From: Octadecabacter ascidiaceicola
Lineage (GTDB): Bacteria; Pseudomonadota; Alphaproteobacteria; Rhodobacterales; Rhodobacteraceae
Assembly (NCBI RefSeq): GCF_900185015.1
Contig: NZ_FXYD01000003.1
Location: forward strand, 248,001 to 312,000
Reading direction: 5' to 3'
Length of the DNA stretch: 64,000 bases
Positions 29,468 through 64,000 of this stretch are shown one piece after another; the first letter of the stretch is position 1, and every line of letters begins with the position of its first letter. Both the position numbers and the translations under genes were made by a program. The notes below the pieces were generated by a model, which did no database searches, was not told the DNA's origin, and was given only the letters and a program-made list of their open reading frames with translations.

Positions 29468-29574
29468 GTTTGCTACTTCCGTTTGCTTGGCGGACCGCAG
29501 ATGCGGCCCTGATGTATTAAGGCCCCCGTAGGTGCCCGACTAGGTTTTTGCCCGCTTCACGCGAACAACAACAA

Positions 29575-45767: not shown

Positions 45768-49919
<4,152 letters not shown>

Positions 49920-50041
49920 CTTTCAAATTCTCACCGGCGCACGAACAGTTGGGCGACTGCACGGGCGACCATACGAGACGACAAAATGAGGTCCATTCTC
50001 GCCACGCGACCCACTGCGCAGCTCTCGACCCCGTATCCTGC

Positions 50042-50079
50042 CTTGGAAAACACCCCGATAAATCGGGAGGTTTTCCAAG
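50042..50079. other. Long hairpin in the rpoB leader
   Basis: Two 18-base arms pair at 16 positions (one two-base internal mismatch) around a two-base loop. No T run follows in the rpoB-sense strand, so it is not an intrinsic terminator; it may be an RNA structure controlling rpoB expression. Confidence 0.7.
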
Positions 50080-50106
50080 AAAGGCCTGCTCACAACGTTT
50101 TGCCTT

Positions 50107-50135
50107 CCCCCTGAAAACAAACGATTTTTCGGGGG
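50107..50135. other. Second hairpin in the rpoB leader
   Basis: CCCCC-T-GAAAA and TTTTC-GGGGG pair over ten bases with a one-base bulge and an eight-base loop. Upstream of the longer hairpin in the predicted leader. Confidence 0.55.
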
Positions 50136-50202
50136 TGTGATAGGCTCCATGCTACAAGACAGAAAGAGCGGCCCCGAATCAATCGAAGCCGCGTGAAACT
50201 GC

Positions 50203-50231
50203 TAAATAGGATGTGAACACACGAATGACAA
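50203..50231 (-). promoter_or_regulatory. Predicted promoter of rpoB-rpoC
   Basis: TTGTCA and TATTTA with a 17-bp spacer on the minus strand; the start site is expected near 50196, giving a leader of about 275 nt. A 5-bp GCGGC/GCCGC stem (50168-50192) lies close to the 5' end. Confidence 0.7.
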
Positions 50232-50322
50232 GGGGGCGCAACACCACCCTTGATCGGAAAATGCAGGACCTTCCGGAACCCCAACCTTCCGCGAAAGCGC
50301 CGCTAGGGTCAAGGAAAACCGC

Positions 50323-50377
50323 GTATGGGGCGGATATGGGTCCAGTATGGGTCTGATATGGTTACAATCCGGTTACG
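50323..50377. repeat. Array of 11-bp RTATGG units upstream of rpoB
   Basis: TATGG occurs at 50324, 50335, 50346 and 50357, exactly 11 bp apart, with the preceding base alternating G, A, G, A. A fifth, degenerate unit (TCCGG at 50368) keeps the phase. It lies roughly 130-180 bp upstream of the predicted rpoB start site and 75-125 bp before the divergent BrnA-like gene. Likely a helically phased protein-binding array. Confidence 0.8.
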
Positions 50378-50449
50378 ACCCCGCACGGCGGGTTTGAACG
50401 TCCTTAATCCATTGAGAACACGCTGCTTTCACCGAATTAGGAGGTGAAA

Positions 50450-50953
50450 ATGCGTGAAGCGGACCCAGAACAGATGAGCAAGGCTGACCTCAAACATTGG
50501 GGGTTCGGCGTCGATGCGATCAAGATGATCGAATACGAATTGATGGGATACCTCCATGAAACCAGAGCCCTGCCCCGCGACTGGGACAACATCTGGGAGG
50601 ATCAGGACAAACGCGACCCGAAGCGGGTGAAGGTGACGATCTCTTTGGATGATGACGTGGTGAAATTCTTCAAAGGGTTGGGACCGGGCTATCAGCCCCG
50701 CATCAATCGTGTGTTGCGGGCGTTCATGCATTTTCGGTTGGCGAAGATCATCGAAGGGCCGGACACGATGGATTACATCTTGCGGCCCAACGAGGTGCTA
50801 GAGAAAGCGCGAACGCGGCCTGAGTGGGGCGATACGGACCGCAAGATGGAGGACGCGGCTGTGCCAAAAAAGGCGGGTAAGCCGCGCAAACGGGTACTGA
50901 AAGGGACGGAACGTCCGTGGGTGGATGATCCTTTGAGGCCGAAGGGGCGGTGA
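50450..50953 (+). CDS. BrnA-like protein without a BrnT partner
   Basis: Residues 60-100 (KRVKVTISLDDDVVKFFKGLGPGYQPRINRVLRAFM, shown by its ends KRVKVTISLDDD and GYQPRINRVLRAFM) match the BrnA antitoxin family, a ribbon-helix-helix DNA-binding fold. The protein is long for BrnA (167 residues), with a 55-residue N-terminal part and a basic C-terminal tail. AGGAGG lies five bases before the ATG. No BrnT-like toxin gene is visible on either side. It is divergent from rpoB. Confidence 0.7.
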   Translation: MREADPEQMSKADLKHWGFGVDAIKMIEYELMGYLHETRALPRDWDNIWEDQDKRDPKRVKVTISLDDDVVKFFKGLGPGYQPRINRVLRAFMHFRLAKIIEGPDTMDYILRPNEVLEKARTRPEWGDTDRKMEDAAVPKKAGKPRKRVLKGTERPWVDDPLRPKGR

Positions 50954-51316
50954 GAGAACCTTGGCACGGGACGCAGGCGTTCTCATGTTTGAATCTGGTC
51001 CAGATCGCAGCCGCGTATCTTCTGACCTATTATCTGCCCCTTGCTCCCAGCGCTTCGTTTCGGGGTTACTGTGGGTAGTTGGACTATTGGCCCCCTCCAT
51101 GCCCAAACATCAGCTCTGCGCTATCGAAGACGACATAGCATTCGGTCAATTGGACAATCTGAAAAGGAACCAGCAAGCATTCTTGTTTCAAGTGCGTCAG
51201 GCCGCTTAGCGCCTGCGTCAGAGCACCACGGTCGCTTAACAACTTTGTTGCACACTATCAGCCGCAAGTCTTTGCGAACCCGTAGAGGTAAAACGCTGCG
51301 TAAGAAAAGTCGGTCA

Positions 51317-51679
51317 CTACAGGGAAATGGATCGCACAGCGTGCTCTACAGCGGCTTTCGTTTGTTCCAGATCTTCTGCGGCAATCGCAAGTGACAAATA
51401 AAGCTTACCCGGCGACTTGAATATCCTGTGCTGGCGCAGCGTTGCATTGTAGGTCGCATTCCGTGCGGGAACATCATGCTTGGCGGAGCGATAATCACGA
51501 CACTGGCTGGACGTGAAAAAGATATCGAACAAGGTCTCATCTCCGCAGAGATGGTGGCGAATACCGGCGGCATCGAGAGCGCTGCTTTGCAAGTCCTGTA
51601 TGGGAGCGAAAAAGGCCGTGAGGCTTTGTGGAATTATGTGTAGACGAAAAACGTCGCCATCAAACTGAAAGGTTAAGAC
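51317..51679 (-). pseudogene. Remnant of a class-III aminotransferase (glutamate-1-semialdehyde aminotransferase-like)
   Basis: The last about 120 residues of the family can be followed: GDETLFDIFFTS, DYRSAKHDV, NATYNATLRQHRIFKSPGK and YLSLAIAAEDLEQTKAAVEHA, ending at a TAG. The catalytic and PLP-binding parts are absent: the frame has no family sequence upstream and the muconolactone-type gene starts there on the other strand. The rest of 50954-51316 shows nothing recognisable. Confidence 0.5.
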
Positions 51680-52060
51680 ATGAGTGCATTTGACGAAGAT
51701 CTTTTTCTGAAAGGCTTGGAACAACGCAAAGCCACGCTAGGCGCTGAGTACGTTGAAAAAAACCTTGCCGCCGCCGATGATTTCACCCGCCCCTTTCAGG
51801 AAGCAATGACTGCATGGTGTTGGGGCTTTGGCTGGGGCGATGGTGTGATCGACGCCAAGACGCGTTCGATGATGAACCTTTCGATGATCGGCGCATTGGG
51901 CAAAATGCACGAGTGGGAAATCCATTGCCGTGGCGCGATTAACAATGGTGTCACCCAAGAGGAAATTCGCGCAATTATTCATATCATCGGCATTTATTGC
52001 GGCGTTCCCCAAGCGCTGGAGTGCTTTCGTGTTGCACGAAAAGTGCTCGAAGAGGCCTGA
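51680..52060 (+). CDS. Carboxymuconolactone decarboxylase-family protein
   Basis: The 126-residue protein has the family pattern TRSMMNLSMIGALGKMHEWEIHCRGAINNG followed by GVTQEEIRAIIHIIGIYCGVPQALE (quoted here as its conserved ends). It is the single-domain type and lacks the CxxC of the AhpD peroxidase branch, so a gamma-carboxymuconolactone decarboxylase-like reaction is more likely than peroxidase activity. Isolated from any aromatic pathway genes. Confidence 0.85.
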   Translation: MSAFDEDLFLKGLEQRKATLGAEYVEKNLAAADDFTRPFQEAMTAWCWGFGWGDGVIDAKTRSMMNLSMIGALGKMHEWEIHCRGAINNGVTQEEIRAIIHIIGIYCGVPQALECFRVARKVLEEA

Positions 52061-52178
52061 CGCTAAGGCATCGGATCAATTCTGCGTCTCCAAATCGAAT
52101 TCACAGAATAGGTTCACAGCCTCCGTTCGCTGCAGGGTGGGGCAAGGTCCAGTTGGTCCGGACACCCTTTCCAAACAA

Positions 52179-52207
52179 AAACGGCGGCCCCTAAGGAGCC
52201 GCCGTTT
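52179..52207 (-). terminator. Intrinsic terminator after rplL
   Basis: AAACGGCGGC and GCCGCCGTTT form a perfect 10-bp stem with a nine-base loop, followed by TTTG in the transcript. It separates rplJ-rplL from rpoB. Confidence 0.85.
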
Positions 52208-52231
52208 CCGTAATCAAAAGATTGAAGTGGC

Positions 52232-52606
52232 TTAAGCCAGTTCAACTTCTGCGCCAGCTGCTTCCAGCTTCGCTTTAACGTCTTCAGCTTCAGCTTTATC
52301 AACGCCTTCTTTGATTTTGCCGCCAGCTTCAACGAGGTCTTTAGCTTCTTTCAGGCCAAGACCTGTGATGCCGCGAACTTCTTTGATCACGTTGATTTTG
52401 GATGCGCCAGCGTTCTTGAGAACGACGTCGAATTCAGTCTTCTCAGCAACGTCGCCGCCTGCGTCGCCAGCTGCGCCAGCAACCATTACTGCGCCACCGG
52501 CAGCTGGTTCGATGCCATACTCGTCTTTGAGGATGGTTTTCAGTTCTTGTGCTTCGAGAAGGGTAAGACCTACGATCTCTTCAGCAAGTTTTTTCAGATC
52601 AGCCAT
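52232..52606 (-). CDS. rplL: 50S ribosomal protein L7/L12
   Basis: The 124-residue protein begins [19 protein letters not shown], has an Ala/Gly hinge near residues 40-52 and the C-terminal factor-binding domain ([27 protein letters not shown]). The ATG at 52606 has GGAAAAG just upstream; a start four codons earlier would overlap it. Forms the stalk with L10. Confidence 0.98.
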
Positions 52607-52675
52607 TTGCTTTTCCATTTCTAAGTTTGTGTTCCAACGACAGGGGAATTCCCTACGTCAGCCATTCAAGTTGCT

Positions 52676-53188
52676 TCAGGCAGCTTTCTCTTCAATTGTT
52701 GAGAGAACGCTTGCGATGTTGGAAGCAGGCGCGCCAATTGCGCCGGCGATGTTGGAGGCAGGTGCACCGATGCAGCCCACGATGGAAGCAATAAGCTCCT
52801 CACGGGATGGCATTTCGGACACTGCTTTAACACCAGCGACGTCAAGTGCCGTCTCACCCATAGCACCACCAAGGATAACGAGCTTTTCGTTATCTTTAGC
52901 GAAACCCTGAGCAACCTTGGCCGCAGCCACAGGATCCTCAGAAAAGGTCAGAACGGTCATGCCTGTCAGGTGATCAGCGATGCTTTCGCATGGCTTACCT
53001 TCGAGGGCAATTTTGGCGAGCTTGTTTTTGGCAACGCGTACAGATGCGTCGACTTCACGTGCACGGGCACGCAGGTCTTGCATCTCAGCAACTGTCAGGC
53101 CTTCGTAGTGGGCAACCACAACGACGCCAGAGCTTTCGAAAATTTGGCCGAGATCCTCGACCAATTGTTCTTTCTGGGCTCTATCCAC
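52676..53188 (-). CDS. rplJ: 50S ribosomal protein L10
   Basis: The 170-residue protein starts at a GTG preceded by GGAG eight bases away (GTG read as Met, then [17 protein letters not shown]). It has [16 protein letters not shown] and KNKLAKIAL of the rRNA-binding part and a C-terminal helix for L7/L12. In bacteria L10 with L12 binds its own leader; stems at 53302-53317 and 53477-53498 are candidate parts of that. Confidence 0.97.
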
Positions 53189-53301
53189 AGTTTCACTCCA
53201 AATATGGGGCTTGGGAAGTATTCCGGCCCCGGCTCAAGTTTGCCTGACCCTTGCGAGCCAGACGTAGAAGTCCTCGAATAACGGGGGTGAGCCGAGTGCA
53301 A

Positions 53302-53317
53302 CTGAGGAGATCCTCAG
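53302..53317. other. Hairpin in the rplJ leader
   Basis: CTGAGGA and TCCTCAG pair over seven bases with a two-base loop, 114 bp before rplJ. Possibly part of the L10-L12 autoregulatory leader. No promoter could be assigned in 53189-53516. Confidence 0.5.
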
Positions 53318-53476
53318 GTAAATTCGGTCGATCCCGCCTCAGGCAGGAATTATGGCTAGGCCACCCACCGTCTCGGACGAAACAAATTGCGCACGACGAA
53401 TCGCACGCTGGTTTGCAAGGGATCATCTAGAGAGGTTCGGCGGTTTTGTGAAGGGGGGAGTTCAGCGAAGTGCCGT

Positions 53477-53498
53477 TTCCCACATAGAACTGTGGGAA
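53477..53498. other. Hairpin between MYG1-type gene and rplJ region
   Basis: TTCCCACA and TGTGGGAA pair (8 bp) with a six-base loop, 18 bp past the MYG1-type gene's stop... on its upstream side for rplJ transcription. No T run follows; a processing or stability element is possible. Confidence 0.45.
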
Positions 53499-53516
53499 GC
53501 CAGCGACGTGGCCCTT

Positions 53517-54434
53517 CTATTGGGCTTCTTTCACCGCGATCTGTGCCATTTCCATGATCGCGTCCCGTGAATCGGCGACAGCGATGAAACGTGCGTTATG
53601 GCAGAACTTCGCGCCCTTAACGCCGCAGGCTGCTTCGAGTGCTTCATCGGTTAGGCCAGCCCATGACGCTGGCAGATCAGCGCGTTGATCAAAGGTATCA
53701 CCAGAAAGCTTGATGCCGCCCAAGGTCCAGTCTTCACCACGTGGAACCACGACGAAAAGGATGTGATCCGCTTCCGCGTCATCGAGCGCTGAACGGAACG
53801 GCATGCCCATCGGAAGTTCGAGGATGGGTGACGTGCCTGCATCCGCGATTGCCTTGTCCACGATCTGACGTGACCGGAACTTCGCGGCGAGATTGCGGAT
53901 TTGGGCCTCGACAAAGCTGCGCGCGATCGGCAATGCGGACATAAAGGCGTCATCGTCTGCCGTGGGCGATGCATCATCAAAGACGGGTTTCAAGCTGCCC
54001 AAAAGCGACGGCAAGGTCAGCACCGACAATGGCCCGGCAACAGAAGGTTCCATCGCGCCGTTATCGAGCAGGTCAATCGGCAGGACGAACTTGGTATCAA
54101 ACTTGTGGTGGATGGCCTCGATATCGTCCGCGGGGACATCCATCGATTCCAGATAAGCACGCCCATAATGCGCCCAGATTAGGCCGAACGAGCTGTACGG
54201 CTGATCATCGCTGCGCATGGGACCGGGGCGTTGATGGTGGTCGAAAATCTGTGCCTCGGCATCATAGGCACCGCCAACGTCGTAGATGATTTTTTCACCC
54301 GCCGGCGCGATCATCGTTTTGTCCCGTGTACGGACAATCTCCGCATCGGGGAACAGCCGTGTGAGAACCACGGAGGACAACAGCTCGTCAGCGTGAAAGC
54401 CACCGGAATGGGTGACAAGGTGGGTGATCGTCAT
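53517..54434 (-). CDS. MYG1-family protein (DHH-like phosphoesterase fold)
   Basis: The 305-residue protein begins THLVTHSGGFHADELLSSVVL and has YDVGGAYD and FDHHQ, the metal-ligand motifs of the MYG1/UPF0160 family. Eukaryotic MYG1 is a 3'-5' RNA exonuclease; bacterial members are assumed to act on nucleic acid. The key His and Asp residues are present. It occupies the gap between rplA and rplJ, 25 bp after the rplA terminator. Confidence 0.85.
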   Translation of the reverse strand: MTITHLVTHSGGFHADELLSSVVLTRLFPDAEIVRTRDKTMIAPAGEKIIYDVGGAYDAEAQIFDHHQRPGPMRSDDQPYSSFGLIWAHYGRAYLESMDVPADDIEAIHHKFDTKFVLPIDLLDNGAMEPSVAGPLSVLTLPSLLGSLKPVFDDASPTADDDAFMSALPIARSFVEAQIRNLAAKFRSRQIVDKAIADAGTSPILELPMGMPFRSALDDAEADHILFVVVPRGEDWTLGGIKLSGDTFDQRADLPASWAGLTDEALEAACGVKGAKFCHNARFIAVADSRDAIMEMAQIAVKEAQ

Positions 54435-54459
54435 AGGGGGCTCCGAGGAATGAAAGACG

Positions 54460-54485
54460 AAAGGCGCCCCATCAGGAGCGCCTTT
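54460..54485 (-). terminator. Intrinsic terminator after rplA
   Basis: AAAGGCGC and GCGCCTTT pair around a ten-base loop, followed in the transcript by TCGTC. The T run is short, so read-through into the MYG1-type gene is likely. Confidence 0.65.
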
Positions 54486-54518
54486 GTATTTGTTTGCTTG
54501 GTAGAGAAGCGCGTTCTC

Positions 54519-55217
54519 TTAGTTACCAGTCGCGTTGTCGACGTTCAGTGTAACGCTTGGGCCCATTGTAGAAGTCAAAGAGATCTTCTTCATGTATGTG
54601 CCTTTGGAGCCAGCAGGCTTTGCCTTTTGAACTGCGCCAACGAATGCCAGAACGTTTTCTTCCAGCTTTGCCGCTGTGAAGGACGCTTTGCCAAGACCAG
54701 CGTGAACCACACCAGCTTTTTCGACTTTGAACTGAACTTCGCCGCCTTTAGCAGCTTCAACAGCGTCTTTGACGTCCATTGTCACTGTGCCGATTTTCGG
54801 GTTCGGCATCAGGTTGCGTGGGCCAAGGACCTTACCAAGACGACCAACGATTGGCATCATGTCAGGTGTCGCGATGCAGCGATCGAATTCGATCTTGCCG
54901 GACTGAACTGTTTCCATCAGGTCTTCTGCGCCAACGATGTCCGCACCAGCGGCTTTGGCTTCGTCAGCCTTGTCGCCACGTGCGAAGACTGCGACGCGCA
55001 TTGTTTTGCCTGTGCCGTTTGGCAGGGCAACTTTGCCGCGAACCATTTGGTCGGCGTGACGTGGGTCTACACCCAGAACAACAGCGATTTCGATTGTCTC
55101 GTCGAACTTCGCCTTAGCGTTGTCCTTAACGAGAGCCACGGCCTCAGCCACTGTGACGTCTGCTTTGCCAGCGAATGCTTCGCGAGCGGCGGTTGTGCGT
55201 TTTCCGAGCTTTGCCAT
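54519..55217 (-). CDS. rplA: 50S ribosomal protein L1
   Basis: The 232 residues include [25 protein letters not shown] and the [12 protein letters not shown] core. L1 forms the mobile stalk at the E site and represses rplK-rplA in E. coli. It follows rplK after one base. Confidence 0.98.
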
Positions 55218-55218
55218 G

Positions 55219-55644
55219 TTACTTAACCTCGATGCCCATAGAGCGTGCAGAGCCCATGATGATTTTCATTGCGCCTTCGATGTCGTTTGCGTTGAGGTCC
55301 TTCATTTTGGCCTCAGCGATCTCACGAACCTGCTTGGACGTCACAGTGCCGACAACTTCGCGGGAAGGAGTCTTGGCGCCGGACTTAACCTTGGCGGCCT
55401 TCTTTAGGAAATAGGACGCTGGTGGCGTCTTGATGTCCATGGAGAAGGATTTGTCTTGGTAATATGTAATCACGGTCGGGCAAGGCGCACCTGGCTCGAG
55501 GTCTGCTGTCTTAGCGTTGAACGCCTTACAGAATTCCATGATGTTGATACCGCGTTGACCCAGTGCAGGGCCGACAGGTGGGGATGGGTTGGCTTGACCT
55601 GCAGGAACCTGCAGCTTCATTGTGCCAGCGACTTTTTTAGCCAT
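55219..55644 (-). CDS. rplK: 50S ribosomal protein L11
   Basis: The 141-residue protein begins [32 protein letters not shown] (quoted start [16 protein letters not shown]), the thiostrepton-site domain, and ends [16 protein letters not shown]11 activates RelA in stringent response. It heads the rplK-rplA block; the spacer to the GT87 gene is 453 bp and holds a promoter, two short palindromes and a repeat array. Confidence 0.98.
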
Positions 55645-55710
55645 TTGGCTTCTCCTTTTGTCCGGTCACAAGACGCGTTCTTGTAACCTATGTGGATGTG
55701 GTCTGGTTTG

Positions 55711-55724
55711 GCGCACGCGTGCGC
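55711..55724. other. 14-bp palindrome in the rplK leader
   Basis: GCGCACGCGTGCGC is fully self-complementary. In the predicted leader it is too compact for a normal hairpin, so a protein-binding site is as likely as an RNA structure. Confidence 0.4.
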
Positions 55725-55742
55725 TTTGCCTCCCACATGGAA

Positions 55743-55758
55743 TGTCGGGTGTCCGACA
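55743..55758 (-). other. Hairpin at the predicted 5' end of the rplK transcript
   Basis: TGTCGG and CCGACA pair over six bases around a four-base loop, beginning at about +2 of the promoter at 55766-55794. Confidence 0.5.
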
Positions 55759-55765
55759 AGCCGCT

Positions 55766-55794
55766 CCTTTAGCTGGGGTTGGCGATTCTTGCAA
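55766..55794 (-). promoter_or_regulatory. Possible promoter of rplK-rplA
   Basis: TTGCAA and TAAAGG with a 17-bp spacer; start near 55759. The -10 is weak, in line with the other block promoters that lack a terminal T. Confidence 0.5.
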
Positions 55795-55920
55795 GAGTGG
55801 AGACCGGTTGAAAGACGCTGGCCTGCTGTATGACGCCAATTAGTTAACGCGAAAATCCGTGGCGTCGCCCACACAAGCGCGAATCGAAGGCTAGCGCCCG
55901 TGTTTGCAGGATTTTGAATC

Positions 55921-55964
55921 GTATGGAAACCATATGGAATGCACTCGGAAACCGTATGGATCTG
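55921..55964. repeat. Array of 11-bp RTATGG units upstream of rplK
   Basis: TATGG occurs at 55922, 55933 and 55955; the fourth position (55944) holds CTCGG in phase. Spacing is 11 bp throughout, and the preceding base is G, A, A, G. It lies about 163-200 bp upstream of the predicted rplK start site. Same unit and period as the array at 50323-50377. Confidence 0.75.
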
Positions 55965-56097
55965 GTAAGATAAATTGTAGGGTTCACACAGCGTGCGGTG
56001 GAGGTCTGTTAAGGTTTAGAAGATATTAGCGATTGGAGTTTCGCGAATGTCTGCACTGTGTCCCGATTATTGATTACATGGGCTAAGCACCGCCAAC

Positions 56098-57354
56098 TCA
56101 TCGGCCGCCGCGCCTTACCGCCAACCAAAACGCCAGCCCCAAGACTGCCATTAAGCTCGTTCCAACAATTTGAAATAGATTGGGACCGGAGTATGCTGAT
56201 CCGGTCGTAAACGGCTCCATCGCAGGTAAGAAAAACAGCGCGCTTCCGATTGCAATGTAAAGGCCTAGTCGTCCTAGTTTCAAAGGCAGTGTGCCCACAA
56301 ACACTAACGCAGTCATGTAGCTGTAACACCAGCTAAGAGGACTTAATATTGCGAACAAGATGGCCACAACGGGTATCACAAGTGCTTCATCTTTGTGCCG
56401 TGCCGCTAACCAGAACGCAGCGCCCAATGCTGCTAGTTGTGCGAAACCAGACATGACGAGCCATAGCGGTGTTTTGGCAATTGCACCCCAAAATTCAGAT
56501 CCGTCGACAGAGCGTGGCTGCCGCACTTCTGTCAAATACTCGAGCAGGAATATCCGCGCGAAAACGCTGTCAAAAGAGAAGGTGAAATTATTCACGATAA
56601 CGGATTTGGAAACGACGCTGACTAATTTAAGGTATTCTACATGAATGTCCCAGCCCACGAGCAAGATGGACAATCCTCCAAGTAAAGCACCCGCAACCAC
56701 AAAGGTCGCAAGGGCTCCCCACTGTTTGCGGGCAAGCAAAATAACAATAAACAACAGCGGGTAGAGTTTGATCGCCGCGGCAAGGGCGAGAATGCCTCCC
56801 GCTGATTTGAAGTGGCCGAAATGTGCGCGTTCAAATGCCCAGACGACTAAGAAACTCACGATGATCTGCGGCTGGTTCTCTTCGATGGCGATACCGACGG
56901 GGAACGTAAAGGCAAGTGCCGCGTAGGTCAGCGCGATGAATCCAAACAGAACGGTTCCTTTGAGATCACACATCTTTGCGGCGAGGTAGATTGAGCCAAT
57001 GATCAATCCCTGATGGACTATTGTCATTACGGCATCGAAGGTTTCAAAGTTTGTGACCTGAGTCAGCCAAGACGCGAGTTTTGCCCAGATTGGCGGGTAG
57101 AGGTATGGAAATATACGCGCTGATGGGTCGGTTTCTGACACATAGCCCCACCAATCTGACGGGGTGGTCATGTCAAACATTTCGGCGTTGGCGGGGTATA
57201 TCTGGTCAAGCCGTTCCATCGACAAGAACTCGCCGGCAAGCCAGAAAGCGTATAGATCTGCGGACTGGGCGCCGAGCGCCCGATGAATCACCGAAAAGGT
57301 TAGAAACGCGATAGCTGTCACGCAAATAATATTAAGAAGTGCAGGTCTCGTCAT
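56098..57354 (-). CDS. GT87-family (DUF2029) membrane glycosyltransferase
   Basis: The 418-residue protein has about ten hydrophobic segments and the GT-C-type layout: a first loop with DLYAFWLAGEFL (its acidic residue may be catalytic), PYLYPPIWA, and NQPQIIVSFL. GT87 members are polyprenyl-phosphate-sugar-dependent mannosyl-type transferases acting in the membrane. Substrate unknown. It sits between the rplK upstream region and nusG, on the same strand. Confidence 0.8.
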   Translation of the reverse strand: MTRPALLNIICVTAIAFLTFSVIHRALGAQSADLYAFWLAGEFLSMERLDQIYPANAEMFDMTTPSDWWGYVSETDPSARIFPYLYPPIWAKLASWLTQVTNFETFDAVMTIVHQGLIIGSIYLAAKMCDLKGTVLFGFIALTYAALAFTFPVGIAIEENQPQIIVSFLVVWAFERAHFGHFKSAGGILALAAAIKLYPLLFIVILLARKQWGALATFVVAGALLGGLSILLVGWDIHVEYLKLVSVVSKSVIVNNFTFSFDSVFARIFLLEYLTEVRQPRSVDGSEFWGAIAKTPLWLVMSGFAQLAALGAAFWLAARHKDEALVIPVVAILFAILSPLSWCYSYMTALVFVGTLPLKLGRLGLYIAIGSALFFLPAMEPFTTGSAYSGPNLFQIVGTSLMAVLGLAFWLAVRRGGR

Positions 57355-57554
57355 TGCGTGCTCCGTTAAGATTCATGTTGTATAGGCAACAATTCTGGCA
57401 ACTATAAGGAGAGCCCGTGGAGTTGGGTTAACCATCTATCGCCACCAACCTTGAAGGCCGCAAAGCTGCCCGTGGTGTTGACTAAGCCAATGTCTGCTTT
57501 GTCCAGCATTGCGGACTTTGCGTCGGATGCAGACTACGGCCCTCTCAACGAAAA

Positions 57555-57577
57555 ACGCCGCACTGAATAGAGCGGCG
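57555..57577 (-). terminator. Intrinsic terminator after nusG
   Basis: GCGCCGC and GCGGCGT pair over six bases around an internal loop, followed by TTTTTCG in the minus-strand transcript, 25 bp past the nusG stop. The remainder of 57355-57554 holds nothing recognisable. Confidence 0.8.
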
Positions 57578-57601
57578 CTTTGGTATTCTGACAGGCAGCG
57601 T

Positions 57602-58135
57602 TTAGCTCTGCTTGGTGACCTGTGTGAACTCAAGCTCGACAGGTGTTTCGCGACCAAAGATTGACACGGTAACCTTGAGGCGCTGGTTCTCGTCGTCGAC
57701 TTCTTCGACCAAGCCGTCGAAGTCTTCGAACGGGCCGTCGTTGACCTTGATCTTCTCGCCGATCTCGAAGTGGATGAGCGTACGTGGCGCTTCTTGGCCT
57801 TCTTCAACGCGGCCGAGGATCTGTTGAACTTCGGCGTCGCGCATTGGCATTGGGCGCCCCTGTGGGCCCAAGAAACCAGTGACGCGGTTGATGGAGTTGA
57901 TCAGGTGGTAACCTTCATCGGACATTTCCATGTGCACGAGAACGTAGCCCGGCATAAAGCGGCGTTCGGCAGTTACTTTCTTGCCGCGGCGTATTTCAAT
58001 GACTTCTTCGGTCGGAACCAAGACTTCGGTGATCTGGTCTGCCAAGCCCTGCTCTTCGGCAGTTGTGCGAATGGTTTCTGCAATCTTCTTTTCGAAGTTC
58101 GACAACACGGAAACCGAATACCAACGCTGTGCCAT
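57602..58135 (-). CDS. nusG: Transcription termination/antitermination factor NusG
   Basis: The 177-residue protein has the NGN domain (RWYSVSVLSNFEKKIAETI and FMPGYVLVHMEMSDE) and the C-terminal KOW domain (GEKIKVNDGPFEDFDGLVEEV). It couples RNA polymerase to Rho or to the ribosome via S10, which is encoded at 33484-33795. Separated from secE by 147 bp with a terminator-like hairpin. Confidence 0.97.
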   Translation of the reverse strand: MAQRWYSVSVLSNFEKKIAETIRTTAEEQGLADQITEVLVPTEEVIEIRRGKKVTAERRFMPGYVLVHMEMSDEGYHLINSINRVTGFLGPQGRPMPMRDAEVQQILGRVEEGQEAPRTLIHFEIGEKIKVNDGPFEDFDGLVEEVDDENQRLKVTVSIFGRETPVELEFTQVTKQS

Positions 58136-58191
58136 TTTATCTGTCCTTCTCGATCGAATTGGGCCCGTTGAAGAGTCCCGGAAATAAAAGC

Positions 58192-58217
58192 GGCGTGCAA
58201 CTCATCCGTTGCACGCC
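58192..58217 (-). terminator. Terminator-like hairpin between secE and nusG
   Basis: GGCGTGCAAC and GTTGCACGCC pair perfectly over ten bases around a six-base loop, and the minus-strand RNA continues GCUUUUAUUUCC. A strong candidate for partial termination between two normally co-expressed genes. Confidence 0.7.
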
Positions 58218-58282
58218 ATCTAAACTTGGAGATTCTTTACCGCGCACGGCGCAACACTTCAAGGGGTTGCGGTGCGTATCGC

Positions 58283-58477
58283 TTAGAATGCGTTCAACAC
58301 ACCATCAAGGCCGAGGCGGATGATCATATCCACCAGCGTAAAGAACAGCGCCATCACAGCCGCCATGATGAGAACCATGATCGTGGTCAGCGTGACCTCG
58401 CGGCGGGACGGCCAGACAACTTTGCCCACTTCGGAGCGGACCTGCTGGAGAAACTGCACTGGGTTGGTTCTGGCCAT
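58283..58477 (-). CDS. secE: Preprotein translocase subunit SecE
   Basis: The single-membrane-segment SecE type with 64 residues: ARTNPVQFLQQVRSEVGKVVWPSRREV, then a hydrophobic segment (about 33-55). The ATG at 58477 gives the family N-terminus; upstream in-frame codons run into the sulfotransferase gene. It partners SecY (13935-15293). Confidence 0.94.
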   Translation of the reverse strand: MARTNPVQFLQQVRSEVGKVVWPSRREVTLTTIMVLIMAAVMALFFTLVDMIIRLGLDGVLNAF

Positions 58478-58545
58478 GATCTGTCCTTTGGTGAAAATGC
58501 CATACGTATAACTGGATTGGCAGGTAACTGTGTTAGCGCCGTATT

Positions 58546-59478
58546 TCAACCCTGCTTTGGATGGTTGGGGCGTTGCAGGAGCGTTACGCCCTCCATCGCT
58601 TCGATCTGCGCCATTTGTGCATCGTAGACCGCTTCGGATTCCGCCAATGTAGAAGCTGCGTAAAGCTTGAAGGGCTTGTTGGTCTCGTTAATCGGGAAAA
58701 GATCCCGTGCGGTTCCGGCGAGTTTTTCGGTGCGCCCCTCTTGCGCCCAAGCCAAAGTTTGGCGCACCGCAGCGGCAGATAGACCTTGGTGAACGCGGCC
58801 ATCCTTAATCTTCTCGATTTTGCCACCCATTTTCCAACGCAGCATCTTGCGCATAATCAATCGCAGCGTCGCGTCGTAGTCCTCTTGTCGCCAGACATAG
58901 ATTTCCCCCACTCCCGGAATCGCGCGAAGGCGGATGACATAGTCTGCCCAGTCAACTTGGCGCCAATCGTTACGGGCGCGAAAGGTGCGCGGGCCGATGT
59001 AGGCGCCGCCAAACAGCGTCTGACTATACGCCGAGGCCATGAATGCGGCCGGATTTCGAACAGCAAGGAACAGTTCGACCTTGACTGGGGCCACGGCCTC
59101 TACGAACTCTTCAATCTTTTCGGAAGCCGTTGAATACAAAGGAAAGCTGACGCGACCCTCAGGGCCACGTAAAACGCCCACAAAATTTTCTTCCGAAAAA
59201 ACAAGCCGCGAGGCGCCTTTGGCAAGAAACGCCAACTGATCCTGTGCATTGCGCCGTGGAATTGCACTGCCTGAACCTTTCAGGCCAAACATCGAATGCA
59301 AACTGCGACCCTTCAGTCGTAGATACCACGGCCCATAGGCGGCAAAACCCTCGTCGATCAGCAGCTTTCGATTATGTTTCAGCACCTTTTGTAGGTGTGT
59401 AGATGCCGTCTTATGCGCACCGATATGCAAGGCGATGGATTTCGGTAAAGATGGCAACTTCGTCTCCCGTTTAGTCAC
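58546..59478 (-). CDS. Sulfotransferase-like protein
   Basis: The 310-residue protein has an N-terminal P-loop-like ALHIGAHKTASTHLQ motif that fits the PAPS 5'-phosphate-binding loop, and AVRNPAAFMASAYSQ, which fits the 3'-phosphate-binding Arg/Ser motif. It probably sulfates a surface carbohydrate or small molecule; substrate unknown. It lies between tRNA-Trp and secE, which are usually adjacent or closely linked. Confidence 0.75.
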   Translation of the reverse strand: MTKRETKLPSLPKSIALHIGAHKTASTHLQKVLKHNRKLLIDEGFAAYGPWYLRLKGRSLHSMFGLKGSGSAIPRRNAQDQLAFLAKGASRLVFSEENFVGVLRGPEGRVSFPLYSTASEKIEEFVEAVAPVKVELFLAVRNPAAFMASAYSQTLFGGAYIGPRTFRARNDWRQVDWADYVIRLRAIPGVGEIYVWRQEDYDATLRLIMRKMLRWKMGGKIEKIKDGRVHQGLSAAAVRQTLAWAQEGRTEKLAGTARDLFPINETNKPFKLYAASTLAESEAVYDAQMAQIEAMEGVTLLQRPNHPKQG

Positions 59479-59508
59479 GTAGCAAACGCTTGGCTACGTC
59501 GGGTGGCT

Positions 59509-59584
59509 TGGCAGGGGCTGAGGGGCTCGAACCCACGACCTACGGTTTTGGAGACCGTCGCTCTACCAACTGAGCTAAACCCCT
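59509..59584 (-). tRNA. trpT: tRNA-Trp (CCA anticodon)
   Basis: The 76-nt cloverleaf is complete. The 5' end AGGGGTT pairs with AGCCCCT in the acceptor stem, the anticodon stem ACGGT/ACCGT flanks loop CTCCAAA with anticodon CCA, the T loop GTTCGAGC is present, discriminator G and the CCA end are encoded. First element of tRNA-Trp-secE-nusG. Confidence 0.97.
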
Positions 59585-59596
59585 AAGCCGAGCGAT

Positions 59597-59625
59597 GATG
59601 TAGCGAGGGCAGCACTGCTTGGCAA
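59597..59625 (-). promoter_or_regulatory. Predicted promoter of tRNA-Trp
   Basis: TTGCCA and TACATC with a 17-bp spacer; start near 59590, a few bases before the tRNA. The -35 lies 13 bp after the stop of the upstream membrane-protein gene. Confidence 0.65.
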
Positions 59626-59638
59626 GGCAGAAACCGCT

Positions 59639-60736
59639 CTATTCCTCACGCTTTGATGTCTCGCTTGATTTCAAACCGCTGCGCACGCCGAAAGATTGTT
59701 TAATAATTTCGTCGGCCGTTTTGAAACGGAATGCAGAACCGCCCCCGGGGAATACGCTTTTGTATTCGGGTTCGGCAGGCTTGGCGTCGTCCTTTTCACG
59801 CTTTGACTTCCCTCTACCCGCCATCTCATGTGCCGGTGTTTGTGGCTTTACCATTCGGCTTGCCTTGCCTGACGCATCTGTGTTGCGGGGCTGCGGCTGA
59901 AATGTCCCCCACGGCGACGCAGCGGGTGCTTCATCTGGCAGCCCGATGTTTTGGTTCGCTTGGGCGGCCTGCTTTTCGGCCTGCACCTCGCGACCAGACT
60001 TTTGCGACTGGTGTTCGGACGCTTTACTTTTGGCGCTGCGGGATATGAGAAGCTTCGAAACACCTAAGATCGCAAGAACCCCCGCCAATCCCCCCAGAAC
60101 CGAAACCATTCCAAACGTCTTTTCGGCGGCGTCATGAAGCGCGTCGGCGCGATTGCCCAAGAAAGGTTTAATCACAACCAGTTCCGGCGACCCTGGCAGG
60201 TTCATCACGGACAATTCCGCCTCGATCGCGCTTAACCAGTCGCGGCTACGGCTCAGCGTTCCGTTCACGTTCACCGCGATGCGGTCACCGTTGCCTTGGG
60301 CCTCAAGCTGGCTTTGCAGGCGTGGTAGCTCGCTCGGTCTGACAGCAAGCACGGCCTTAACTTCGCGGCCTTGATCGTCGGCCAGTAGGATAAACCCACG
60401 CTCCAAGCCGATTGGGTCGAATTCCCCTTGCGGCAGAGCGCTGAAGTACAGGCCGCTGACATGCACTTCGTCGTTACTATAAACGTCGGTATCTCTGTTC
60501 CATTTTGACAGCGGTGTGGGGTCAGGCACGCTTTCGCTGGCTTGATACTCTGCCTCAATAACATTGAAGCGATAGTTTTCGTATTCTTGGTAGGCGAGAT
60601 ATCCAACCCACGCCGCCAAACCGATATACACGATCCACGGCAAGCGGAATATCCATCGGATGTACCACGGGTACAGAAAGAGTTTTACGATCCCGAAGAC
60701 AATTCGAAACGGCAGGGTAAGAATACTGGAAGTCAT
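59639..60736 (-). CDS. Membrane-anchored protein of unknown function
   Basis: The 365-residue protein begins with an N-terminal hydrophobic region (about 12-50, with aromatic clusters FLYPWYIRWIFRLPWIVYIG), a soluble domain of about 160 residues, a second membrane segment (about 205-225) and a long charged, low-complexity C-terminal tail. The start at 60736 overlaps the acetyltransferase stop by four bases; an earlier start was rejected because it lies within that gene. No family recognised. It is co-transcribed with the acetyltransferase gene. Confidence 0.7.
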   Translation of the reverse strand: MTSSILTLPFRIVFGIVKLFLYPWYIRWIFRLPWIVYIGLAAWVGYLAYQEYENYRFNVIEAEYQASESVPDPTPLSKWNRDTDVYSNDEVHVSGLYFSALPQGEFDPIGLERGFILLADDQGREVKAVLAVRPSELPRLQSQLEAQGNGDRIAVNVNGTLSRSRDWLSAIEAELSVMNLPGSPELVVIKPFLGNRADALHDAAEKTFGMVSVLGGLAGVLAILGVSKLLISRSAKSKASEHQSQKSGREVQAEKQAAQANQNIGLPDEAPAASPWGTFQPQPRNTDASGKASRMVKPQTPAHEMAGRGKSKREKDDAKPAEPEYKSVFPGGGSAFRFKTADEIIKQSFGVRSGLKSSETSKREE

Positions 60737-61404
60737 AGATGCGGTCCTGCGGCCTTTCGCAAAGCGTTCAAATCTGCACCGCAAATCGCGGCTTCTGAAG
60801 ACACTACCGCGTCAATTGGCCAATGCCACCATTGGATTTCGAGAAGGGCCGCGATTGTTGCGTCATCAAAACGGCGGCGCACAGGTTTGGCAGGGTTCCC
60901 TGCAAGGATTGTGTAGGGGGGATGCTTGCCCGAAACGACGGCTTTTGCCCCGACAATGCAACCCGTCCCGATGTTCACCCCCGGCAGAATGGTCGCGCCC
61001 TGCCCGATCCAGACATCGTGACCAATGATCGTATCTGGCCCCGCGTCAGGCATCGACGGGCGGTTGCGATCCATGTCGAGGAACACCGAGAACGGAAAGC
61101 TGCTAAAGCCATCGTATCGGTGGTTGGCTGACGATGTAATGAAGGTCACTCCGTCGGCGATCTGGCAAAATTTCCCGATCGTCAGGGTCTCGGGGCTTTG
61201 GGGGAACAAGTAGGGAGCAAGATGGAAGGCCCAGTTTTCTGGTGGGGAGTGGGCGCTGGCGTAGGTGTATTCGCCCACGTTCATATTGGGATGAACTACG
61301 GCTGATTTCAGAAAAACCGTGCCTTTGTGAACGGTTCCGTCCGGCAGGATCACAGGGTGCAGAGTGTCAAATGATGGGAAGTCGCGTGGGGGAAGTGGGG
61401 GCAT
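60733..61404 (-). CDS. CatB-like hexapeptide O-acetyltransferase
   Basis: The 223-residue protein shows the left-handed beta-helix pattern (TIGKFCQIADGVTFITSSANHRYD, IGHDVWIGQGATILPGVNIGTGCIVGAKAVVSG; quoted in part) of the XAT/CatB family, with the catalytic-type His in SANHRYDG. These acetylate drugs or sugars; with a glycosyltransferase and a sulfotransferase nearby, a surface-sugar role is plausible but unproven. Upstream is 100 bp to the tuf terminator. Confidence 0.8.
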   Translation of the reverse strand: MPPLPPRDFPSFDTLHPVILPDGTVHKGTVFLKSAVVHPNMNVGEYTYASAHSPPENWAFHLAPYLFPQSPETLTIGKFCQIADGVTFITSSANHRYDGFSSFPFSVFLDMDRNRPSMPDAGPDTIIGHDVWIGQGATILPGVNIGTGCIVGAKAVVSGKHPPYTILAGNPAKPVRRRFDDATIAALLEIQWWHWPIDAVVSSEAAICGADLNALRKAAGPHL

Positions 61405-61513
61405 AATGGGCCTCCTTTGGTCTCATGTTGGAAGGGAACAGGGATCAAAGGTGGGTAATCATCGAAGCCTCCATTGGTTGAGAGGAAGGTTACGAGGGAA
61501 GTTCAAAAAAGAA

Positions 61514-61541
61514 AAGGCCCTCGCATTTCGGCGAGGGCCTT
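61514..61541 (-). terminator. Intrinsic terminator after the second tuf gene
   Basis: The same stem as after copy 1, with one change in the loop-side arm (GGCGAGGGCCTT), followed by TTTTCTTTTTT in the transcript. Confidence 0.85.
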
Positions 61542-61628
61542 CTTTGTTTGTGGACCGTTAGCGTTCATCCGCTCTCGCGACCTTTCTTACAGAAAGGCGC
61601 TGTCGCGGCTGCGCGCTGGTCTCAAAAA

Positions 61629-62804
61629 TTAAGCGATAATTTTTGAAACCACACCAGCGCCGACTGTGCGGCCGCCTTCGCGGATCGCAAAGCGCAGGCC
61701 GTCTTCCATCGCGATGGGTGCGATCAGTTCAACTTCGAACTTCAGGTTGTCGCCTGGCATAACCATTTCAGTGCCTTCTGGCAGCTGAACTGTGCCCGTA
61801 ACGTCTGTTGTACGGAAGTAGAACTGTGGACGGTAGTTCGCGAAGAATGGTGTGTGACGACCGCCTTCTTCTTTCGTCAGAATGTAGGCCTCGGCTTCGA
61901 ACTTCGTGTGTGGCGTAACAGACCCTGGCTTACACAGGATCTGACCACGCTCAACGCCGTCACGGTCAACACCACGCAAAAGCGCACCGATGTTGTCGCC
62001 AGCTTCACCGGAATCCAGCAGCTTGCGGAACATTTCAACACCAGTACATGTTGTTTTTGTGGTGTCGCGGATACCAACGATTTCGATTTCGTCGCCAACG
62101 TTGATCACGCCACGCTCAACACGGCCAGTTACAACTGTACCACGACCAGAGATCGAGAACACGTCCTCAACTGGCATCAGGAACGGCTGGTCAACAGCAC
62201 GTGCAGGTGTCGGGATGTATGTGTCGACAGCTTCCATCAGCTTAACGATGGAGTCTTTACCGATCGCGTCATCACGCTCTTCCATAGCTGCAAGCGCGGA
62301 ACCTGGGATCACTGGAATGTCGTCGCCTGGGTACTCGTAAGAGGACAGAAGCTCACGGATTTCCATTTCAACCAGTTCGAGCAACTCTTCGTCGTCAACC
62401 TGGTCAACTTTGTTCATGTAAACAACCATATATGGGATGCCAACCTGACGACCGAGCAGGATGTGCTCGCGTGTCTGTGGCATTGGGCCGTCTGCTGCGT
62501 TCACAACCAGGATCGCGCCGTCCATTTGGGCAGCACCCGTGATCATGTTTTTCACGTAGTCAGCGTGACCTGGGCAGTCAACATGTGCGTAGTGACGTGC
62601 TTCAGTCTCGTACTCAACGTGCGCAGTGGAGATCGTGATACCACGTGCTTTTTCTTCCGGCGCGCCGTCAATCTGGTCGTACGCTTGGAAATCACCGAAA
62701 TACTTCGTGATCGCCGCTGTCAATGTCGTCTTGCCGTGGTCAACGTGGCCAATTGTGCCGATGTTAACGTGCGGTTTATTACGTTCAAACTTTTCCTTAG
62801 CCAT
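61629..62804 (-). CDS. tuf: Elongation factor Tu, copy 2
   Basis: The product is identical to copy 1 (391 residues). Unlike copy 1 it is a single-gene unit with its own promoter, and lies in the tuf-tRNA-Trp-secE-nusG neighbourhood, with two unrelated genes inserted before tRNA-Trp. Its translation start lacks the AAGGAGG of copy 1; GGCGCCTCGATC precedes the ATG. Confidence 0.97.
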
Positions 62805-62827
62805 GATCGAGGCGCCTTGTCATTCGG

Positions 62828-62843
62828 GGGCTGTTATTAGCCC
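62828..62843 (-). other. Short hairpin in the tuf2 leader
   Basis: GGGCT and AGCCC pair around a six-base loop, about 11 nt from the predicted start site. Confidence 0.4.
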
Positions 62844-62860
62844 TGTTCAACATCGCGGGC

Positions 62861-62889
62861 GATGTATTGCGGAATGGCGCAAAGATCAA
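62861..62889 (-). promoter_or_regulatory. Predicted promoter of tuf2
   Basis: TTGATC and TACATC with a 17-bp spacer on the minus strand; the start site is expected near 62854. The -35 is seven bases past the stop of the lipoprotein gene. Confidence 0.6.
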
Positions 62890-62895
62890 GAGAAA

Positions 62896-63573
62896 TTAAG
62901 GCAAGCCGATCGTGCCTTGTGGATTGGTGCTCGCAAGTGAATCCGCTGGTGGTACCTGTTCTGGCGCCACAAGTTCAGGGTTGTCTTCAAGTACGTTACC
63001 GATGCGGATCGTGTCATCCGCTTCTAACACTTCAGGCGTGCCGCCGAACCAGTCGGCGTTTTCGCGCATTGTACGCTCAATTGCGCGCGCCGCGTTGAAG
63101 GATAGACCCTCCATTTGTTCGTCCGCGGAACGGGTGAAGCCAGACCCAAGGAGCGGAATTGTGCAGCAAGGTTCGAACACGGTGATTTGGATGGCTTCAT
63201 CGTTGAGCTTTGTCTGGGTTGAATCCTCAAAGAAATTCACGCTGAAAATCAGCACGGATTTCGGGGAATAGATCAGCGGCACACCTGGGTAGGCCAGAAC
63301 ATAGCCTTCAACCGCGATGCCGACGTGGTAGTATTTGTCGCCAAAAAAACGCGCCTCGCCGAGGCGGTCGGCAACAGCGGTGGTCATCGTTGCCTGCCAT
63401 TCGTCATCCGTAACTGTACGTGAGAACGGGCCTTGGGCCGGTTCATTTACAACGGCGATGTTGTGACCAAGGCGGAACGCGCCAATTGCTTCGGGTGTTT
63501 CGGTCAGATCATCGCGGACACCGCCACAGGCGGTCAGCAGCGCCAAGCCCAATAAAGCCACAAGAATTCGCAT
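62896..63573 (-). CDS. Lipoprotein of unknown function
   Basis: From the ATG at 63573 the 225-residue protein has a lipoprotein signal peptide (MRILVALLGLALLTAC, lipobox LTAC). The mature part has no recognised domain but includes a moderately conserved-looking beta-rich stretch (KYYHVGIAVEGYVLAYPGVP) and an acidic C-terminus. The upstream in-frame start would bury the signal. It ends seven bases before the tuf2 promoter. Confidence 0.75.
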   Translation of the reverse strand: MRILVALLGLALLTACGGVRDDLTETPEAIGAFRLGHNIAVVNEPAQGPFSRTVTDDEWQATMTTAVADRLGEARFFGDKYYHVGIAVEGYVLAYPGVPLIYSPKSVLIFSVNFFEDSTQTKLNDEAIQITVFEPCCTIPLLGSGFTRSADEQMEGLSFNAARAIERTMRENADWFGGTPEVLEADDTIRIGNVLEDNPELVAPEQVPPADSLASTNPQGTIGLP

Positions 63574-63674
63574 GTCGTTCCCCCATTTGATCCCCAAACC
63601 TAGCGCAGCGGATGCAGGGCTGCAATCTGTCGCTCTTGGTGCAAGTTTAAACGGCAGAACAATGTCTTGTCGAC

Positions 63675-64000
63675 TTAGGTGAATGTATTATCCCGCGGGA
63701 AACCGCGCGGCGCCATGCGCCCAGCGCCTGCACGTTTTGCTGTCCATTCGCCGAGCTCGGTTTCCGTACGCGTCCGCCCTGCGGGGTCAAGCCAGCTGAG
63801 GCCTTCCTCAAGGGTGAATGTCGTTGCATCGGACAAGCCGCCGTCTTTGTACTTCTGCAAACGCACGCCTTTGCCGCGACCCATTTCGGGGAGTTCGTCC
63901 AACGGGAACAGCAGCACTTTGCGGTTCTCGCCGACGCAGGCGATATGATCGCCTTTGACGTCAGAGCAGACCTGCGCACGTACGTCGCCTTTGACGTTGA
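63675..64000 (-). CDS. parC: DNA topoisomerase IV subunit A, 3' end
   Basis: The gene runs off the right edge; the visible 108 codons are the C-terminal end. They show the blade-like repeats of the DNA-wrapping domain (DHIACVGENRKVLLFPLDELPEMGRGKGVRLQKYKDG, quoted as VLLFPLDELPEMGRGKGV) typical of ParC. ParC with ParE decatenates daughter chromosomes. The stop is followed by a 100-bp spacer to the lipoprotein gene with nothing recognisable. Confidence 0.9.
   Translation of the reverse strand, partial: NVKGDVRAQVCSDVKGDHIACVGENRKVLLFPLDELPEMGRGKGVRLQKYKDGGLSDATTFTLEEGLSWLDPAGRTRTETELGEWTAKRAGAGRMAPRGFPRDNTFT

Follow-up and report, generated by a model that had tools for sequence, protein, structure and literature searches.

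What reads a row of four TATGG units, set exactly 11 bp apart, in the gap between rpoB and a divergent gene with a BrnA domain? We analysed this array in a 64,000-nucleotide stretch of the Octadecabacter ascidiaceicola genome, hereafter the window, and compared it with related genomes. The features of the window that are named below are:

50323 to 50361, plus strand: four-unit array with an 11-bp period, (RTATGGN5)x3 + RTATGG, seen in 0 of 100 shuffles and conserved in place in relatives
50362 to 50377, plus strand: fifth unit, in phase but weak (TCCGG at 50368), found as a shifted four-unit match with 2 mismatches
50450 to 50953, plus strand: orphan BrnA-domain (ribbon-helix-helix, RHH) gene, 167 amino acids, ATG at 50450, Pfam PF14384; the proposed reader of the array
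55922 to 55959, plus strand: second four-unit array, degenerate (3 mismatches, CTCGG as its third unit), in the intergenic stretch before rplK
45768 to 49919, minus strand: rpoB, identified by translation; a neighbour outside the array system
49938 to 50031, minus strand: Rhodo-rpoB leader RNA (Rfam RF03074), between rpoB and the array; outside the array system
29470 to 29537, minus strand: L2-Alphaproteobacteria ribosomal protein leader (Rfam)

The TATGG units start at 50324, 50335, 50346 and 50357 of the plus strand, in exact 11-bp steps and preceded in turn by G, A, G and A, just as the initial annotation had described them. TRF recovered the same array, which is the sole site in the window where any pentamer occurs at least three times at period 11. 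Even with up to three mismatches allowed, the four-unit pattern had no match across 100 dinucleotide shuffles of the window, so the possibility that such arrays are equally frequent in random sequence found no backing. The fifth unit that had been proposed does keep the phase, but its sequence is weak. The array had also been placed 130–180 bp upstream of the rpoB start; the actual distance is about 405 bp, rpoB lying on the minus strand. To the ATG of the divergent BrnA-domain gene, which has AGGAGG immediately 5' of it, the distance is 89–126 bp. A search of the whole window with Rfam at gathering scores returned only a tRNA-Trp, the Rhodo-rpoB leader and the L2 leader, and none of these at the array. 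The second array lies only 5.6 kb away from the first, and the 95 bp round it align at 73% to the middle of a region of genome G085 (L235) that is centred on an array. Measured in 8-kb steps, the GC skew of the window is negative over 1–48000 and positive over 48001–64000, which puts a skew switch near rpoB.

The product of the BrnA-domain gene matches PF14384 above the cut-off (E-value of 1.7e-13). All 11 members of an alignment of BrnA-domain proteins (A2) match this family at E ≤0.001, and we take PF14384 to have the RHH fold. A structure model built from 11 sequences was poor (pLDDT 46, pTM 0.27), while a search of PDB sequences with the protein profile and a search of NCBIfam each gave 0 matches up to an E-value of 1. 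In a sample of 296 genomes of the window's family, 39 matched the protein at E < 1e-15 and 109 at E 0.001; as only 39 match at the stricter threshold, the gene appears to be missing or unrecognisable in most genomes of the family. A class-wide sample of 389 genomes yielded 12 with matches at E 1e-10, four of them in the window's family, and the matches in the other eight covered only 42–55 positions round the RHH core. Long protein matches are thus confined to the window's family in the two samples searched.

Ten relatives were found by protein (L049–L058), from Octadecabacter, which belongs to the Rhodobacterales, from Pseudooctadecabacter and Alterinioella, and from other Rhodobacteraceae. 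The BrnA-domain gene adjoins rpoB in L049–L052, and the array is conserved in that intergenic region; a loss of the units from close relatives, which would have spoken against a functional site, was looked for and not seen. The gene lies away from rpoB in L053–L058, yet an array with an 11-bp period still precedes it. Its units there are TATTG in part of L053 and L054, GTACAC in L055 and L056 and TATGGCTGGCG in L057, with a looser GTACACCCCCC array in L058. Across the sequences compared, the array accompanies the BrnA-domain gene, not rpoB.

We examined 44 orthologs, in most of which the array starts about 100–140 bp 5' of the start codon. An automatic rule placed 33 of them in two classes, TATGG (n = 12) and RTRCAC-like (n = 21), and left 11 unclassed. 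Four of the latter score at least 16 as other units, namely TATAG in L066, GTCTT in L103 and L104 and an ATGCG-type unit in L087. A clear upstream array was missing in seven of the 44 orthologs. The window's own genome (G000) has a second BrnA-domain paralog (L072, G000:C2:1010951-1011433) that is 74% identical and has GTACAC units upstream. The ortholog of G014 was matched in two pieces (L071 and L075) and looks interrupted; RTRCAC arrays are nonetheless present.

The upstream unit and the protein were found to vary together. Directly before the VT of the predicted DNA-contacting beta strand stands K in 12 of 12 TATGG-class and R in 21 of 21 RTRCAC-class orthologs, an agreement that holds in all 33 classifiable orthologs. 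In the window's protein the strand reads KRVKVTISLD and holds the K of the TATGG class. RHH proteins lay this beta strand into the major groove. L066, with TATAG units, has A before VT, and in L103 and L104, with GTCTT units, the VT is replaced by VN. A tree of 43 orthologs was built with the residue columns excluded, and on it unit and residue each change six times; L071 is counted among the 33 but is not in the tree. Unit and residue agree in all five independent pairs on well-supported (starred) branches, five pairs being too few for a sign test to reach 0.05. This comparison strongly supports the arrays as sites that the neighbouring BrnA-domain protein would bind. The cooperative protein site on one face of the helix that the initial annotation had suggested is by far the best reading of the pattern, since core and 11-bp phase are kept amid varying spacers and the unit changes in step with a protein residue. 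A response regulator of the OmpR/PhoB type or a BldC-like reader, ideas that came from the 11-bp period, were dropped once unit and BrnA residue proved to co-vary.

Arrays of this kind recur elsewhere in the window's own genome and in relatives. In G000, the exact three-unit TATGG pattern matches 28 times at 14 places, against 2 matches for the reversed pattern, and inclusion of degenerate arrays brings the number of places to 18. G016 has four exact TATGG units at 35 places. The three-unit TATGG pattern occurs in 12 of 61 genomes (own and relatives), 10 of the 12 being in the genus, while RTRCAC arrays were found in 17 of 35 and TATRG arrays in 5 of 16 genomes searched. At up to three mismatches the reversed control rises to 15 matches (7 + 8) against 32 forward, and G013, G015 and G016 give high control counts too, likely because GGTATGG units also contain GGTAT at an 11-bp period, an explanation that does not extend to G014. 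The cleaner searches are the exact one in G000 and those for RTRCAC and TATRG. G014 itself has five reversed-pattern matches (GGTAT units, 11 bp) and none forward.

Judged by these matches, the genome-wide unit is mostly the one that precedes the species' own BrnA-domain gene. All eight genomes of the genus with a TATGG-type ortholog hold at least six four-unit TATGG matches (≤2 mismatches), and all seven with an RTRCAC-type ortholog hold 4–11 three-unit RTRCAC matches. Outside the genus, the TATGG-type genomes G085, G102, G132 and G294 have 11–152 TATRG matches, with 0 RTRCAC arrays in the first three. Eight RTRCAC-type genomes outside the genus were searched, and four of these are poor in exact three-unit arrays (0 in G227, G083 and G210, 1 in G029). 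Arrays for which no matching ortholog was found occur in G018 (TATGG) and in G001, G017 and G010 (RTRCAC), all less than 90% complete. Single or double stray matches for which no matching ortholog was found occur in G002, G009, G023, G024 and G031. G000 also has seven three-unit RTRCAC matches at six places; with its two paralogs and arrays of either kind, this genome seems to carry two such systems side by side.

What the protein would do at so many places is the second question that the locus raises. It could simply regulate transcription globally, at a few dozen target promoters, so that the spread of arrays is its regulon, but on the evidence of array placement we consider this unlikely. 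The array before its own gene does stand at operator distance, and 116 of 123 arrays in regions of 10–20 kb, with genes called by a simple script, are not wholly within a called gene. The gaps that hold them, however, are tandem, convergent and divergent alike, and divergent gaps are under-represented: they hold 16 of these 116 arrays but make up 261 of the 1073 gaps of at least 45 bp in the same regions. A four-unit array even lies within the valS coding sequence and is kept there in two genomes (L040 in G000, L133 in G016), its in-frame translation being about HTGPIPDPYPTHI. The majority gene strand equals the array strand in only 44 of 122 regions, an agreement so low that orientation by transcription was rejected. 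Mean spacing is 93 kb in G016, 78 kb in G011, where the list takes in places with mismatches, and 84 kb in G228. These distances are more regular than chance would give (p = 0.0006, 0.0001 and 0.012, respectively), which speaks against a regulon; evenness beyond chance was not found in the other two of the five genomes, G000 (p = 0.15) and G085 (p = 0.97).

Polar replication-fork barriers or valves, resembling Tus-Ter or RTP but set along both arms, would make use of several dimers in a row and of an orientation along the leading strand as given by GC skew; we regard this reading as quite improbable. Of 120 regions from six genomes in which the comparison could be made, 113 have the array on the G-rich strand. 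The regions came from 14 of 14 places in G000, 14 of 14 in G085, 35 of 35 in G016, 20 of about 45 in G228 and 20 of about 40 in G011, and from 20 among the matches listed in G102. One G228 region with arrays on both strands (L179) was left out, leaving 19. The skew was averaged over genes of both strands, and in two G000 regions one of the strands carried too little coding sequence for this, leaving 120 of 122. Because a G-rich motif drifts to the G-rich strand by composition, we set these counts against a first-order composition model for each region. Seen against expected, the numbers were 35/35 and 31.1 in G016, 20/20 and 16.1 in G102, 19/20 and 16.1 in G011, 11/14 and 11.9 in G000, and 10/14 and 10.0 in G085. 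Composition accounts for most of the strand bias in these five TATGG genomes; the preference beyond it is weak in G016 (P = 0.011) and G102 (P = 0.012) and was not found in G011 (P = 0.063), G000 (P = 0.86) or G085 (P = 0.63). In G228, where the arrays are C-rich, 18 of 19 lie on the G-rich strand against 3.8 expected (P < 0.00001); C-rich units also occur in G005, G014, G192 and G316. Only in G228, then, is polarity clear.

Diverging neighbour arrays, minus then plus, enclose parS or end less than 15 kb from it in six of eight genomes (G000, G005, G011, G014, G016 and G085, the pair being absent from G002 and G228), which would suit a fork barrier, although the pattern is post hoc, weak and not rare by chance. 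Against a barrier, the sites run along the whole arms rather than round the terminus, and 4 of 14 G085 arrays oppose the local skew. The skew switch of G085, at about 0.35–0.45 Mb, does not coincide with its parS at 3.24 Mb. The same genome has a 1.38-Mb stretch (652–2031 kb) with no arrays among the matches listed, and at coarse sampling this stretch holds the cumulative GC-skew maximum.

A short unit in tandem, found in many intergenic gaps and differing between clades as the units of repeat families do, could also be a functionless dispersed tandem repeat or a mobile element that stands beside the BrnA-domain gene by chance. STRR- and REP-like are the names of comparable repeats. This is a highly improbable reading, as unit and protein residue change together, three genomes space their arrays evenly, and both the anatomy and the places of the arrays are conserved. 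When arrays from six genomes are aligned, the information is concentrated in four units. Their left boundary is abrupt; the right one is less so in G102 and G228, and in G228 a fifth, inverted-looking unit comes after it. When one mismatch is allowed, 73 of the 123 arrays have four units, 37 have five, 11 have three and two have six, with five-unit arrays the commonest in G102. The unit cores are kept while the spacer bases vary, and for this reason simple tandem-repeat slippage was rejected. At 13 of the 14 G000 arrays, a G016 array lies at the same place as judged by flanking open frames (12 by blastn). Places are likewise common with G016 for 12 of 20 sampled G011 arrays and for 8 of 14 G085 arrays. 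The sampled G228 arrays, with different units, have only 2 of 20 places in common with G016. One of these is clear, in the gap beside a gene read as rpoA (L164 in G228, L162 in G016), where different units occupy the same place; the other (L176 and L140) is less certain, with an offset of 813 bp by blastn.

Least credible of all is a local regulatory site for rpoB, because the array, although it lies in the intergenic region between rpoB and the BrnA-domain gene and is conserved there in L049–L052, is 405 bp from rpoB and beyond the Rhodo-rpoB leader, goes with the BrnA-domain gene where that gene is elsewhere and recurs at 14 places in the genome, and we rejected both this reading and the tie to rpoB that had been drawn initially.

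We conclude that the arrays are probably the sites of an antitoxin-derived protein that regulates its own gene and marks or organises the chromosome. Dimers of the orphan BrnA-domain RHH protein would bind side by side, one per 11-bp unit and all on the same helical face, as a rule four to an array. The array 89–126 bp before its own start codon would give autoregulation, and the protein would also read the matching arrays elsewhere on the chromosome. The antitoxin would in this way have become a factor for segregation or nucleoid organisation and not a controller of a gene set. Chromosome marking or organising is the most likely role for arrays that are mostly intergenic, without bias to promoters, conserved in place, evenly spaced in three of five genomes and independent of gene direction. 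The array strand, which in G228 follows the G-rich strand clearly beyond composition, also counts towards this reading. We infer binding, autoregulation and a chromosomal role from the comparison of arrays, of their conserved places and of unit and protein.

More tentatively, at what we judge close to an even balance, the orphan BrnA protein may constitute a chromosome-polarity system of the Rhodobacterales. Its arrays would be oriented, mostly of four units and about 80–90 kb apart along the chromosome arms. An exchange of the K/R type in the RHH beta strand would have switched its code about six times, and the full complement of sites would have been rewritten with it, in at least one case at an unchanged place. 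If true, this would add a chromosome-marking system to the alphaproteobacteria and a case in which part of a toxin-antitoxin pair was domesticated for chromosome biology. It would also provide an unusually clean natural record of a protein and its sites switching recognition together (TATGG with K, RTRCAC with R), a record that makes the RHH recognition code directly testable, with related genomes that lack gene and arrays as ready-made controls.

The window's protein has the Pfam BrnA_antitoxin domain in common with the antitoxin of the BrnTA type II toxin-antitoxin system. BrnT (PF04365, E 0.001) had no match in G000 and 10 more of the 15 genomes searched. The four BrnT matches in these 15 genomes lie away from the array-linked gene, and those of G008, G085 and G192 stand beside a separate weak BrnA match. 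In open-licence PMC literature, no description of the array or the protein was found among the matches listed (titles and starts of abstracts), and no paper was found that joins BrnA with Rhodobacter, chromosome and DNA-binding.

Other proteins that read dispersed chromosomal sites offer closer comparisons. MatP is an RHH protein, and its matS sites are 13-bp palindromes. In Escherichia coli, MatP and matS are described as a system of dispersed chromosomal sites in chromosome organisation (PMC5441646). Unlike MatP/matS, which belong to the Ter domain, the arrays run along the whole chromosome and mostly lie on the G-rich strand. KOPS, the sites of FtsK, are described as pointing, in each arm, from the origin towards the terminus (PMC2680272); they are 8-bp motifs read by FtsK gamma, whereas the arrays are about 38–50 bp long and tied to a separate RHH gene.

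CdbA of Myxococcus xanthus is an RHH protein with genome-wide sites, for which the published account gives a direct-repeat motif with two contacts one helical turn apart and, in nine genes tested, little effect on transcription (PMC7156744). CdbA is also reported to have 569 peaks and moderate specificity, to bind c-di-GMP and to be essential; in contrast, there are tens of strict arrays here, and the gene was not found in most of the family genomes sampled. SegB of the Sulfolobales (SegAB), likewise an RHH protein, is reported to have sites upstream of its own gene as well as 39 ChIP peaks and 46 motif sites chromosome-wide, and is linked to chromosome organisation and segregation (PMC12284271). 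The combination of a site before the own gene with dispersed chromosomal sites recurs here, the sites being predicted ones. The SegB sites described are 13-bp palindromes, 83.7% of them inside genes, and the partner SegA is ParA-like (PMC12284271), while the arrays are direct repeats, mostly intergenic and linked to a BrnA-type RHH protein. SegB and CdbA show, by these accounts, that chromosomes can be organised by RHH proteins whose dispersed sites number from tens to hundreds. The predicted sites of the BrnA-domain protein are dispersed and lie mostly outside promoters.
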